Source: an uncultured Acidobacteriota bacterium
GTDB lineage: Bacteria > Acidobacteriota > UBA6911 > CAINFC01
Assembly: GCA_903847975.1 (NCBI GenBank)
Contig: CAINFC010000166.1
Location: forward strand, 1-64,000
Direction of reading: 5' to 3'
Length of the DNA stretch: 64,000 nucleotides
Shown: piece by piece, positions 419 to 61,610 of the stretch
How positions within the stretch are numbered: the stretch's first letter is position 1
Layout: each line of letters begins with the position of its first letter
Program-made: the position numbers and the translations under genes
Notes under the pieces: generated by a model
Seen by the model: only the letters and a program-made list of their open reading frames with translations
Databases searched by the model: none
What the model was told of the DNA's origin: nothing

Positions 419-3400
419 TCAGAAGAGCAGCTTAAGGCCGAGCTGAACCCGGCGCGCCGCAGCCGCCGAAGAGATCCGGCCGAACGAAGGGGATCCGAAA
501 AAGATGTCCGGGAGATGGAAGTTGGGGTGGTTGGCCAGGTTGAAAACCTCGGCGCGGAACTGCAGGATTTTTCCTTCCCGCAAACGGCTGTCCTTTAACA
601 GGGACAGGCTCAAATCCCGGTAGGCCGGGCCGTCCAGGATGTTGCGGCCCGAGTTGCCGAAACTGCCGTAGGGGGCCGGCGAAAAGGCGCGGGTGTCGAA
701 CCACAGCCCCGGGCCGGGCTGCTCCAGCCGGCCGGAAGAGATCCGGTTGGGCCGGTTGTTGGCGCCGAATCCCAGGCTGGACATGCCGGTATTGCTGTTG
801 TCGAGCTCCGGAAGCAGTGCCACGGTGAAGGGCCGCCCGCTCTGCAGGGTCAGAATGGCATGTACCGACCAGCCCGCGGCCAGCGCCTCCCCGATCCGGC
901 CGGCAGGGCTGAGTCGGTGCCCGCGGCCCATGGGCAGATCGTAGGATGCGCCCCAGGACAACCGGTGGCGGACATCGAAATTGGAACGGCCGTATTCGGC
1001 TCCGGGGCGGGAGCTGTCCTGCGGGAAATTGGAATCGCCGGAGCTCGAAAAAAAGGTGGAACTGGAATCCAGCGATCGGCCGAAGGTGTAGGAAAGCAGG
1101 GAACTCCAGCCGGCGCGGAAGCGCTGCTGAAAGAGGGCCTGCAGGCTGTGAAAGGCGCTAATGCCGCGCGATTCCTCGAAAGTGATGTCCGCAAACTGCG
1201 GCACCGGCCGCGGATTGGGCCGAATCGCGGCGGGTTTGGGCTGATTGATATCCCGTGCCGAAAGTATTTTATTGCCCCGGGAACCGAGGTAGGCCAGCTC
1301 CAGCAGCCTGCCTTCTCCCAGGGGCAGCGAAAGGGTCAGGTTCCAGTGCTGCATGTACGCCGTGCGCAGGTTGCGGTCGAATCCCAGGGCCGATCCCGGG
1401 ATGGCGAAAGGATAGGACGACGGGAAAGGATCCGCCAGAGTCAGCGGCATGCCCGGCAGCGGAAAGTACATGCGGAAATCGTAATAGGGCTTGTTAAAGT
1501 AGAGCCCTTCCCCGGGAGCCAGGGAAGACTGGTCATAATAGATCCCGTAGCCGGCGCGCAGCACCAGGTCGCGGTTCCGGAGCGGTTTCCAGGCCAGCCC
1601 GATCCTCGGGGCCCAGTTGTTCCGGTCCGGCCGGTACCCGGAGCGGGGAACGGCTCCCTGGCCTACCGGCACCAGGGCGGCTGACGTCGGGTCGAAGATG
1701 TTGGCCCGGTCGTAGCGGTCCACCGGCGGGCGGTTGTATTCGTAGCGCACGCCGAAAAGCAGCGTCCAGTGGGGCCGCCAGCGGTAGCTGTCCTGCAGAA
1801 AGAAGTTCAGGCTCCGGGTGCGCAGGTACTGCGGGTTGTCCAGGCGGGCGCCCCCGGAATAGGTGATAGCGCCGAGCAGCAGGTCGGCCAGCCCGTTGCC
1901 GGTGACCTGGCCGTAGTCGGAGAAAGCCAGCATGCCCCGGGACTGAATATCCCGAAAGGCGTTCTGCTGCAGGGACCGGAAGTCGAACCCGTATCGGACC
2001 AGGTGCCGGCCCGCGGTGTGGGTGGCCAGGTCGGAGACCTGAAACACGTTGATGGTGCTGTGCTGCGGATTGTTGTATTCGTCCCCCAGCGGGCTGTAAC
2101 CGGAAACGGTGATGAAGCTCAGGCCGTAATCCCGCGGCTGGGAGGAGAGCTCCGGCAGGCCGACCGAGCGGTTCAGGCTTCCGCTGCGCGTCTCCTGCCG
2201 GGAGCCGAACGCGATCCGGGTGTAGGAGAGCCGGAGCTGCTGCATCCAGCCCGCGGAAAAGATGCGGTCTTCGCCGAGCATCAGGTTCTGGGCCCTTCGG
2301 GCCACTTCGACTCCGTAGCCCGGGACCCGGGCGAATCCCGGGCCGGAGAACGGCTCGTACAGGGAGCGGTCCGAAAAGCTGTAGCGGCCGATCAGGCTGG
2401 AACGGGCGGAAACAGTGTGATCGATCCGTGCATCGAAGCGGTCCTCGCGATCCCGCAAGGCCGGGGAGGAAACAAAGTTCTGACCGGCGACCGCCCGGTT
2501 CGGCAGCGGATACAGGGCCGCAATGGCCTTGCCGGTCGGGCTGATCCAGGCCGCAGGGACGATCCCGTTGTCGAAAGGTTTCTGCGTATACGGATTGATC
2601 GGGCTGGAAAAGATGCTCTGCGAAAAGTTGCCGGTACGCTCCTCGGCCGTGGGGACATTGGTGAGCCGGGTAATCCCCTCGCGCAGCCGGCGCCCTTCGT
2701 AGTCGGTGAAGAAGAAGGTCCGGTTTTTGCGCAGCGGTCCGCCCAGCGAAAATCCGTACTGGTTCCGCTGGTAGCGGGGATTGGGATCATCCGGCCGGAC
2801 AAAGTAATTCCGCGCGTCCAGGGCGGCGTTGCGGAAGAACTCGTAAGCCGTTCCGTGAAAGGCGTTGCTGCCCGATTTCAGAGCCACGTGGATCTGTGCT
2901 CCGCCGCTCCGGCCGAAGGTGGCGTCGGCCGTTCCGGTGAGAACCTCGAATTCCCGGATGGCATCCGCCGGCGGATGAACGGCGTAGCTGTTCAGCTTCG
3001 GATCGTTGTTGAAAACCCCGTCCAGGATGAAATTGTTGGAATCCTCGCGGGCTCCGTTGGCGTTGACCGTAAAATCTCCGCGAACCGATCCCGGAGAACC
3101 CTGGGCGGCCGGGGCGGTCCCGGGCAGCAACAGGGTGAGCTGCAGGAAGTCGCGGCCATCCAGGGGAAAGTTCATCATCGGCCGGTTTTCAACGACCGCC
3201 CCGGAGCTGGCGGTGTCCAGCCGGGCGGGTACCGGTTCGGCCTCCACGACCACTTCTTCCGCCGGCCCCCCTCTTTCCAGCAGGATTTTCAGACGCTGGC
3301 TCTGTCCGACCTGCAGGGCGATTCCTTTCCGGGAATATTTCCGGAATCCGGCCCCTTCGGCTTCCAGGCGATAGATTCCCGGGGCGAGCGCCGGAATGGC

Positions 3401-50292: not shown

Positions 50293-51732
50293 ATGATTTC
50301 CAATTTCAACCGGCGGAACTTTCTGTCCAGCACCGCCAAAACCGCTGCCGGAGCGGCCGTAGCCGGCCGGGCCCTTTCGGCTCAGCCGGCGGCCCGAAAA
50401 GTCCTCGGAGCCAATGACCGCGTCAACATTGCGGTCATCGGGATTCGCGGGCAGGGATCCGGCCACATCCAGGGCTTTTCGCAGATCCCCAACGTACGCA
50501 TCAAAACGCTGTGCGACATCGACGAGAATATTTTCGCCGAGCGGGTGAAATTCCTGCAGGGCAAATACAACTACCAGCCGGTCACCGAGTGGGACATGCG
50601 CAAGGTGTTCGAGGACAAGGAAATCGATGCGGTGACCTTCGCTGTTCCCAACCACTGGCATGCCCTGGGCACGATCTGGGCCTGCCAGGCCGGGAAGAAC
50701 GTCTACGTGGAAAAGCCCTCCTGCTGGAGCGTCTGGGAGGGACGCCAGATGGTTTACGCTGCCCGGAAGAACAAGGTGGTGGTGCAGGTCGGCTTCCAGA
50801 ACCGCTCGCGGCGCACCACCCGGGCGGCCATACAGCTGCTGCACAGCGGCAAGCTGGGCAAGATCTACATGGGGCGCGGCCTGTGCTTCAAGCCCCGGGG
50901 GGACATCGGCAAATATCCGGACGGGCCCATGAACGAAGGCGAGAAGTTCACCCTGACCAAGGAAGGCGGCGCCATGCCCGCCTACACCAAGTCCTATCTG
51001 GACAAGGTGCATTACGACATGTGGATCGGCCCGGCGGGCCTCCGGCCTTTCAACCGCAACCGCTTCCATTACAACTGGCACTGGCAGTTCGAATACGGAA
51101 ACGGGGACACCGGCAACCAGGGCCCGCACCAGTTCGATGTTGGCCGCTGGGGCCTCAACAAGGAGGAATACCCGGTGAAGGTCAGCTCCTACGGCAACCT
51201 CTACCTGTTCAAGGAGACTTCGGACCAGGACACCCCCAACGTCCAGACCACCCTGTTTGAGTATGCCGACGGCACGGTTTTCGAATTCTGCACCCGCGGC
51301 TGGTACACCAACAAGGAGGGTTCGGTGGCCATCGGCAATGTGTTCTACGGCAGCGAAGGCTGGCTGGAAATCGATGCCGACGGCAATTGGAAGACCTTCC
51401 TGGGCCGCAAAGGCGAGCCGGGACCGGACAGCAAGAGTATTCCGGAAGAGCAGGCGGATGCCCTCAGTACCATCGGATCCGGGATGGGCGGGCACTTCGG
51501 CAATTTCATCGCCGCGGTCCGCTCCGGCCAGCCGTCCGATCTGACCTGCGACATTGAGGTCGGACACAAATCCAGCGTGCTGCCCCTCCTGGGAAATATC
51601 GCCTACCGCACCGGCCGCGAGCTGAAGTTCGACGGCGCCACGGAAAAGTTCGTCAACGACAAGGAAGCTGACAAGCTTCTGGCCCGGGCCGAGTACCGCA
51701 AGCCCTACACGGTACCGGACCTGAGCAGGTAA
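50293..51732 (+). CDS. Tat-exported Gfo/Idh/MocA-family oxidoreductase
   Basis: 479 residues. Twin-arginine leader NFNRRNFLSSTAKTAAGAAV. Rossmann domain with VNIAVIGIRGQGSGHIQGF (nucleotide binding), then CDIDENIF, and EKPSCWSVWEG carrying the family's catalytic Lys in the EKP motif. The C-terminal alpha/beta domain includes WHWQFEYGNGDTGNQGPHQF, with the typical GxxxxxGxHxxD-like region. The nucleotide is probably pre-bound NAD(H), allowing function in the periplasm. Such enzymes act on sugars, inositols or glycosides. An AACGGAGG site lies 8 bases before the ATG. It follows the M14 pair by 66 bases and ends before a strong hairpin. Confidence 0.9.
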   Translation: MISNFNRRNFLSSTAKTAAGAAVAGRALSAQPAARKVLGANDRVNIAVIGIRGQGSGHIQGFSQIPNVRIKTLCDIDENIFAERVKFLQGKYNYQPVTEWDMRKVFEDKEIDAVTFAVPNHWHALGTIWACQAGKNVYVEKPSCWSVWEGRQMVYAARKNKVVVQVGFQNRSRRTTRAAIQLLHSGKLGKIYMGRGLCFKPRGDIGKYPDGPMNEGEKFTLTKEGGAMPAYTKSYLDKVHYDMWIGPAGLRPFNRNRFHYNWHWQFEYGNGDTGNQGPHQFDVGRWGLNKEEYPVKVSSYGNLYLFKETSDQDTPNVQTTLFEYADGTVFEFCTRGWYTNKEGSVAIGNVFYGSEGWLEIDADGNWKTFLGRKGEPGPDSKSIPEEQADALSTIGSGMGGHFGNFIAAVRSGQPSDLTCDIEVGHKSSVLPLLGNIAYRTGRELKFDGATEKFVNDKEADKLLARAEYRKPYTVPDLSR

Positions 51733-51773: not shown

Positions 51774-51810
51774 TCCGTCCCTCCTGTTGCCATCGCCATA
51801 GCGAAATGTC

Positions 51811-51939
51811 GGATAACGTACCGTTGTGCACTGCCTCGGCCCGGTGAAGTCCCGCGTAAACCTCACCGGACTGTTATTCCGAGGCAAAGTCCCGTAAGGG
51901 ACGGCAAGATTGCAGACCGGCAATTCAATGCCGGGTTGG
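51811..51939 (+). repeat. Structured palindromic repeat, copy 1 (possible folded RNA)
   Basis: Three nested or successive stems: GCCTCGG (51833-51839) with CCGAGGC (51879-51885), enclosing CCGGTGA (51841-51847) with TCACCGG (51863-51869); then GTCCC/GGGAC (51889-51902); then CCGGCA/TGCCGG (51917-51934). The loop GAAGTCCCGCGTAAACC and the tail GCCGGGTTGG are shared with 61319-61454, while loop bases and some stem pairs differ there. The remaining gap 51940-52156 has short palindromes (GCGCGGCGCGCGC) but no gene. Confidence 0.7.
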
Positions 51940-52156
51940 CTTGAAGGAATCGGCTGGTAAGGCTATTGGGGGAGGGACGCGCGGCGCGCGCCCCAAGGAA
52001 TATCCGGGCCGGAAAAATCCTGCAGAAGAACCTTCCCGCGAACGGATGGGTTGCTCCCCTGGAGGCATCGGCTAATAAGGCTTTTATGGCGTAGGAGCGC
52101 CATCCGCACGTCTCTACAGATATCTTGTCGGAGATGTCGATTTCTCGGACAGGCCC

Positions 52157-61106: not shown

Positions 61107-61262
61107 TGGCTTCGCAAAAAATCCCCGTTTCCTGACGACAGGCTCTTCCGCTTTTCTTACCGTTCTTCCTTTCTTCCCGTATGCCTTTTCTTTACACAGG
61201 AAGACGGGAAGATCAGGAAGGAAGAAGGAAGCCATCTCATCCTGAGGAAGGTGTAAAAAGTA
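61107..61262. repeat. TGGCTTCG-AAAAA motif plus pyrimidine/purine hairpin repeat, copy 3
   Basis: ATGGCTTCGCAAAAAATCC (61107-61125) is followed by the hairpin 61150-61233: pyrimidine arm (GTTCTTCCTTTCTTCCCGT), loop, and purine arm (ACACAGGAAGACGGGAAGATCAGG). It closes with GAGGAAGGTGTAAAAAGT (61244-61261), resembling GATGAAGGTGCAAAAAGT at 45-62. The two short motifs thus flank a hairpin as in a small composite element. No gene in 60921-61610. Confidence 0.6.
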
Positions 61263-61318
61263 GTATTGTTTTGTTATGCCGTTCCTTACGGGACTTGCGT
61301 GTATGCCGCACGGGGCGA

Positions 61319-61454
61319 AATAACGGATATCGTGGCGTTGTGCTCCGCCTTGGCCTTGGGAAGCCCCGCGTAAACCGGCAAAGGACTGTTATTTCGAGGT
61401 GAAAGTCCCATATGGGACGGCGGATTTTGGCCCGGCACGAAAGTGCCGGGTTGG
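61319..61454 (+). repeat. Structured palindromic repeat, copy 2 (possible folded RNA)
   Basis: Aligns along its length with 51811-51939. Shared parts include CGTTGTGCTCCGCC, GAAGCCCCGCGTAAACC, GGACTGTTAT and GCCGGGTTGG. Stems are kept with changed bases: CCTTG/CGAGG for the outer stem, GTCCC-ATAT-GGGAC for the second, and CCCGGCAC-GAAA-GTGCCGGG for the third, with a GNRA-type loop. Further small palindromes (GTCCCATCGGGAC, ACCCCGAAAGGGTT) follow up to 61545. Confidence 0.7.
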
Positions 61455-61610
61455 GGCAGGATCAACCCAAGTCCCATCGGGACAGCAGAGCCGGGCAAAA
61501 AAACGATCATTTACGAATCTATCCATCACCCCGAAAGGGTTGATACCACCAGACAGCCCTGACCGGAGCAGCGTCAGGCAAAGGAGGGGGAAAGCGGGAG
61601 TCCCTGCAGA

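Follow-up and report, generated by a model that had tools for sequence, protein, structure and literature searches.

Acido-Lenti-1 as the probable double-hairpin end of Y1 transposons and as a module of a high-copy repeat family in an acidobacterial genome

Two intergenic copies (A and B) of a repeat were located in the window, a 64,000-nt stretch of an acidobacterial genome of 8.1 Mb. Copy A lies between convergent genes, the gene before it being a Gfo/Idh/MocA oxidoreductase (50293-51732); a short motif, ATCGGCTRRTAAGGCTWTT, occurs twice just to its right (51949-51975 and 52067-52095, spaced 118 bp). Copy B lies beside a pectate-lyase-like gene (PF06917; 61611-63209). Both copies had been placed to within ~10 bases by an earlier, sequence-only reading, and the hairpins named there are present. 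Flanks of copy A were compared with those of other copies; inverted ends were absent on both sides, and copy A consists of the core alone. Copy B is of the complete type, and its ends, set by comparison with other copies, are uncertain by several bases (Table 1).

Table 1. Positions of the two repeat copies and their parts in the window, and of one transposase-bearing element in another genome (own numbering).
Feature	Position	Strand	Evidence
Copy A, repeat core (model positions 1-142)	51801-51941	+	149 bits with model R1
Copy A, outer stem GCCTCGG (51833-51839) / CCGAGGC (51879-51885)	51833-51885	+	sequence, fold
Copy A, hairpin GTCCC-GTAA-GGGAC (H1 of Acido-Lenti-1)	51889-51902	+ (Acido-Lenti-1 reads minus)	sequence, fold
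Copy A, hairpin CCGGCA...TGCCGG (H2 of Acido-Lenti-1)	51917-51934	+	sequence, fold
Copy B, complete type, ~280 bp, inverted ends GAGGAAGGTGTAAAAAGT... and ...TTTACGAATCTATC	61244-61523	+	flanks of ~25 copies
Copy B, left hairpin GTTCC-TTAC-GGGAC	61281-61294	+	sequence, left-end alignment, own-genome blast 61277-61296(-)
Copy B, repeat core (model positions 1-142)	61315-61456	+	149.4 bits with model R1
Copy B, hairpin GTCCC-ATAT-GGGAC	61405-61418	+	sequence
Copy B, RF01687 match: hairpins GTCCC-ATAT-GGGAC and CCCGGCAC-GAAA-GTGCCGGG	61404-61450	-	36.4 bits, E 8e-7
Copy B, right-end module (swapped-in left-end type): CCCGGCAC hairpin and outer hairpin GTCCC-ATC-GGGAC (61471-61483)	61431-61483	+	
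L055 (G025), ~650-bp element: Acido-Lenti-1	790-836	-	
L055: intact Y1 gene, 150 aa	880-1332	-	
L055: Acido-Lenti-1	1390-1436	+	

The family is far larger than the two copies first reported. Blast alone found 55 places in the genome, and a search with a model built from 21 copies (R1) gave at least 150 scored matches, ~90-110 of the matches listed being near full length; the family was sized at ~100 near-full copies of the ~142-bp core. Most full-length copies shared 77-84% identity with copy A, and many sat at contig ends, where an interspersed repeat that interrupts assembly would be expected. Complete-type copies span ~280 bp and carry, left of the core, GATGAAGgTGCAAAAAGT, an AT-rich stretch and GTTCTGCCGTCCC-N4-GGGACTTGC, and right of it CAAGTCCC-N3/4-GGGACGGCAGAAC, an AT-rich stretch and TTTTTTGCGAAGCCATC, the two sides being inverted copies of each other. 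Hairpin modules have been both gained and lost, since four copies have an extra left module (L003, L004, L019 and L021) and one lacks the right module (L029).

The last third of the element, read on the minus strand, is Acido-Lenti-1 of Rfam (RF01687; gathering score 37 bits). No known RNA reached its gathering threshold in the window (the RF01687 match in copy A was weak, 15.3 bits at 51888-51935 on the minus strand; copy B, Table 1), and 24 other places in the genome scored above that of RF01687. In the module, a 12-nt linker separates hairpin H1, whose stem is ~5 bp long, from H2, with a stem of ~8 bp; a foot of the ATAG/GTAG type immediately precedes H2 on its 5' side. Class-wide, the foot was ATAG in 16/25 and GTAG in 3/25 (together 19/25); in the window's genome it was mixed. 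There the orientation of the module towards the core is reversed, H1 adjoining the core and H2 lying farther out. No relative of the core (model positions 1-~87) was found in 60 related genomes, and it is the module, not the core, that same-class relatives have in common with the window element.

Several features of the family are those of MITE-like repeats: it is dispersed, in high copy number and without a coding gene, no transposase gene being present in the copies examined in this genome. Terminal inverted repeats are found in the complete-type copies, including copy B, and are lacking in copy A. No autonomous element with these ends was seen in the same genome; what is shared is the module, which autonomous elements in other genomes also carry. 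Neither an empty site nor a target duplication was found, the flanks of the G014 and G035 copies examined being themselves repetitive.

The fold of copy A was more stable than 199/200 shuffles (z -2.7 with DNA and -2.9 with RNA parameters) and that of copy B than 190-192/200 (z -2.0 and -1.8, respectively). The stem differences between the two copies had been described as compensatory, and they do not clearly beat shuffles. Across 21 copies, 92.0% of cells were paired against 91.3% in shuffles (25/500 as high; 95% for the H1 hairpin), and 4 pairs were changed on both sides against 2.3 (75/500 as high). Among 91 copies, covariation was dominated by subfamily haplotypes, most of the top covarying column pairs, e.g., 38-45 (GG/UU), being markers of subfamilies and not base pairs. 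A candidate long-range stem in the core, CGAAATAGC/GTTATTCCG, paired in 83% of cells, showed no clear covariation and was rejected.

Of the differences cited earlier, the one between GCCTCGG and CCTTG affects one side only, C-G becoming U-G (family consensus GCCTTGG/CCGAGGC). The one between CCGGCA and CCCGGCAC arose from a left-end module swapped into the right end of copy B: this end matches the left module of L004, taken in reverse complement, at 56/62 positions and the ordinary right module of L004 at 46/67; L018 and L024 carry the same right-end variant. With the third hairpin a swapped module, covariation between the window copies is mostly an effect of recombination. Of the two outcomes that the sequence-only reading had named as counting against it, one was observed, the lack of convincing covariation among other copies; the other, assignment to a known REP or terminator family, was not.

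Across the class, the two Acido-Lenti-1 hairpins behaved differently from the window's family. Pairing was kept in 97.5% of cells against 74.6% in shuffles, and double changes numbered 62 against 17.5, neither value being reached in 500 shuffles; the covariation disappeared when the register was slid. Covariation of this strength indicates that the structure is conserved at class level, but covariation alone cannot separate RNA from single-stranded DNA structure. Selection on RNA structure, as proposed earlier, is thus not borne out by the copies of the window's own genome, and the class-wide covariation, strong as it is, belongs to modules that behave as transposon ends.

In sister genomes the module occurs up to ~100 times per genome, often as inverted pairs with starts ~100-390 bp apart. 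One acidobacterial MAG (G027; JAFGIY01) has five ~370-bp element copies, 90-95% identical, in unrelated surroundings; it was the single acidobacterium matched in a pattern scan of the genome collection, as can be expected where stems vary between genomes. Two further genomes (G014 and G018) had 96 and 14 Acido-Lenti-1 matches and no Y1 transposase match at E <= 1e-3; there the modules are orphan repeats, like those of the window's genome. A literature search found no paper treating Acido-Lenti-1 beyond a listing; the family is of type 'Gene; sRNA' in Rfam and was rated 'probably' an RNA (Weinberg et al., 2010; PMC2864571). Lentisphaerota, too, are among the groups from which it has been reported.

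Y1 transposase genes were gathered by a PF01797 scan of the class, sorted by a simple motif pattern rule (WQ.GY, Y-x3-Q), not by phylogeny, and their surroundings were tested with Rfam. An above-threshold Acido-Lenti-1 module lay within 350 bp in 11/27 loci of the WQ.GY/Y-x3-Q type, on both sides in 5, and in 0/26 other Y1 loci (canonical IS200 0/6, RAYT 0/11, unassigned 0/9; Fisher 2.7e-4). Module density predicts 0.13 such loci by chance (P 4e-18). The remaining 16/27 had no module over threshold, and further loci of this transposase type carry sub-threshold modules, mostly in the same orientation. The ~650-bp element of Table 1, which lacks tnpB, illustrates the arrangement: of the bracketing modules, the low-coordinate one reads on the minus strand and its high-coordinate partner on the plus strand, an inverted arrangement in which H1 faces outward. 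A single departure from this orientation was seen, in an extra module lying farther out (L188).

The same association was found outside the class. Among 20 loci of other classes picked by transposase alone, 8 had the module, 6 of them on both sides. In 297 genomes of the phylum, the transposase was present in 47/63 module-bearing genomes and 25/234 others (odds ratio 24.6, uncorrected for phylogeny); the latter 25 carry the transposase and no module. Searched outward from the top Acido-Lenti-1 matches, a transposase was met in 3/49 loci, in line with a majority of copies being non-autonomous. Within a single element the ends tend to match each other, and between genomes the stem sequences differ with pairing kept; this is what co-evolution of enzyme and hairpin would give. 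The suggestion that the repeat is mobile as a palindromic unit is accordingly well supported by hairpin modules bracketing Y1 genes in sister genomes. The encoded Y1 enzyme to be looked for had been pictured as RAYT-like; the bracketed genes are Y1 genes, and not classical RAYTs.

The bracketed transposase matched PF01797 and the NCBIfam IS200/IS605 transposase, and its relatives in the PDB were TnpA of the IS608 and ISDra2 types. In an alignment (A4), D54, H55, W95, Q96, Y115, Q119 and H123 were invariant and H57 and H122 were conserved in at least 90%. The proteins show DH[IV]H, WQ, Y-x3-Q-x2-HH, a length of ~148 aa and a conserved C-terminal segment, and are on these published motifs putatively assigned to TnpA subclass 1.2, for which DHxH, WQ, Y-x3-Q-x2-HH, ~150 aa and a conserved C-terminus were described (Quentin et al., 2018; PMC6006769). 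That subclass was described as generally without typical terminal hairpins and as mostly from Cyanobacteria and Bacteroidetes (PMC6006769), whereas the present elements have hairpin ends and occur in Acidobacteria. With IS200/IS605 elements and their non-autonomous derivatives they share the transposase family and hairpin ends, but unlike in canonical IS200 each end is a double hairpin, one the inverted copy of the other. Y1 genes lying between inverted repeats have been described in Acidobacteria as TIRtrons (Di Nocera et al., 2013; PMC3733652), and the TIRYT/TIRtron arrangement, including its acidobacterial cases, is similar in this respect.

Other repeat systems were compared in the same way. 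REP/BIME repeats with RAYT resemble the present ones in being high-copy intergenic hairpins, in inverted pairs, with a tetranucleotide foot 5' of a hairpin; here the foot is mostly ATAG instead of GTAG, and the unit is a double hairpin. Membership of the GTAG REP/RAYT group was rejected on the rarity of the GTAG foot and the lack of modules at RAYT loci. The CGTC REP, with an unpaired terminal CGTC and an 8-9 bp stem starting A-T (Di Nocera et al., 2013), was rejected as well, GTC lying inside the ~5-bp H1 stem and the stem being G+C. Class 3 TnpA, described from Planctomycetes and Acidobacteria, is marked by W[TA], Y-x4-Q and a foot of the form CnGA (PMC6006769); it likewise includes acidobacterial Y1 genes and atypical hairpins in hundreds of copies, e.g., in Solibacter, but the present proteins have WQ and Y-x3-Q and the foot is ATAG. 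The Acido-Lenti-1 module agrees with RF01687 in its two hairpins and linker and differs from an RNA gene, as which RF01687 is filed, in being dispersed as a repeat, occurring in inverted pairs and bracketing transposase genes; the window element adds its own ~90-bp core and outer inverted ends.

With good confidence, Acido-Lenti-1 is read here not as an RNA gene but as the double-hairpin end of subclass-1.2 Y1 transposons, from which high-copy orphan repeats were seeded across Acidobacteria; what was catalogued as an RNA is most likely transposon DNA. The autonomous unit would be a gene for a ~150-aa Y1 transposase (HUH, single catalytic tyrosine) between two inverted modules. By analogy with IS200/IS605 and REP systems, the enzyme would recognise the hairpins as single-stranded DNA, make its cut next to them and mobilise the unit; the ATAG/GTAG foot preceding H2 is similar to the REP guide sequence. 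Derivatives that are truncated or reassembled but keep these ends would be mobilised in trans. Single-stranded DNA hairpins would then be the selected structure behind the class-wide covariation. The window copies are fairly likely to be non-autonomous, MITE-like mobile repeats built from the hairpin modules that end IS200-type transposons in other Acidobacteria. A transposase of the subclass-1.2 type may have moved them, and they would now be without other function; such an element may have given rise to them long ago, or the module may have been taken over by another system.

Such a different mover, with the Acido-Lenti-1 hairpins captured as building blocks, was considered rather unlikely for the window repeats. 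It could be a RAYT of the genome itself, or a transposase recognising the outer ends GATGAAG.TGCAAAAAGT, and several observations agree with it: no subclass-1.2-like transposase was detected in the assembly, a RAYT-like gene is present (L033), the orientation of module to core is reversed with respect to the transposase-bearing elements, and the outer inverted ends reach beyond the hairpins. That RAYT, however, has copies of a different repeat family at its sides and none of the present one, and a gene enclosed by these ends was nowhere seen in this assembly, itself broken at the repeats. The Y1 inventory of the genome came to two RAYT-like genes and one IS200 fragment, and all were rejected as partners, none lying beside the element.

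Distinctly improbable is the reading under which Acido-Lenti-1 is a functional small RNA, the window copies are its genes or relics, and proximity to transposase genes is incidental or reflects an RNA serving the transposon. The Rfam filing, the published rating and the strong class-wide covariation speak for it, but such covariation is also expected of single-stranded DNA hairpins recognised by a transposase, and a copy number of up to ~100 per genome, inverted pairing and consistently oriented modules at 11/27 and 8/20 transposase loci (0.13 expected by chance) fit it poorly. A role as ordinary intergenic structures, whether terminators, mRNA-stabilising hairpins or similar, for which the copies would have been kept, was judged highly improbable: both copies are intergenic, one between convergent genes, and their folds are stable, but no T-run follows the hairpins, long shared sequence extends outside the stems, and the differences among copies show no clear compensatory excess.

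If the transposon-end reading is true, a curated Rfam family would be reclassified as transposon DNA, a transposase subclass without a known DNA substrate would gain one, and acidobacterial assembly breaks at these repeats would be explained. It would also serve as a warning that hairpin covariation is not proof of RNA function, as single-stranded DNA transposases select hairpins too.

Other elements were recorded alongside. The RAYT-like gene of the window's genome (contig C213, L033 1170-2048; gene 1291-1893, minus strand) is flanked by copies of a different repeat family, AAGCTTTAGCTTGC..., that also lies beside element copies L007, L008 and L010; gene and repeats probably form a REP/RAYT pair of their own. 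Near the start of contig C258 (L034 165-680) lies a reverse-transcriptase-like frame (RVT_1) that two TGA codons interrupt, and a second, uninterrupted one lies on contig C6 (L035). Tandem-like, same-orientation Acido-Lenti-1 arrays lie downstream of the transposase gene in G019 (L203 2598-3218) and G186 (L313 2082-3259). The MAG G027 also has a larger set of short elements, e.g., L097-L126, with the common end GGAGTTTATACAT (91 pattern matches against 19 in a reversed control) and at least two different inner sequences; one (L183) contains a decayed Y1 gene.
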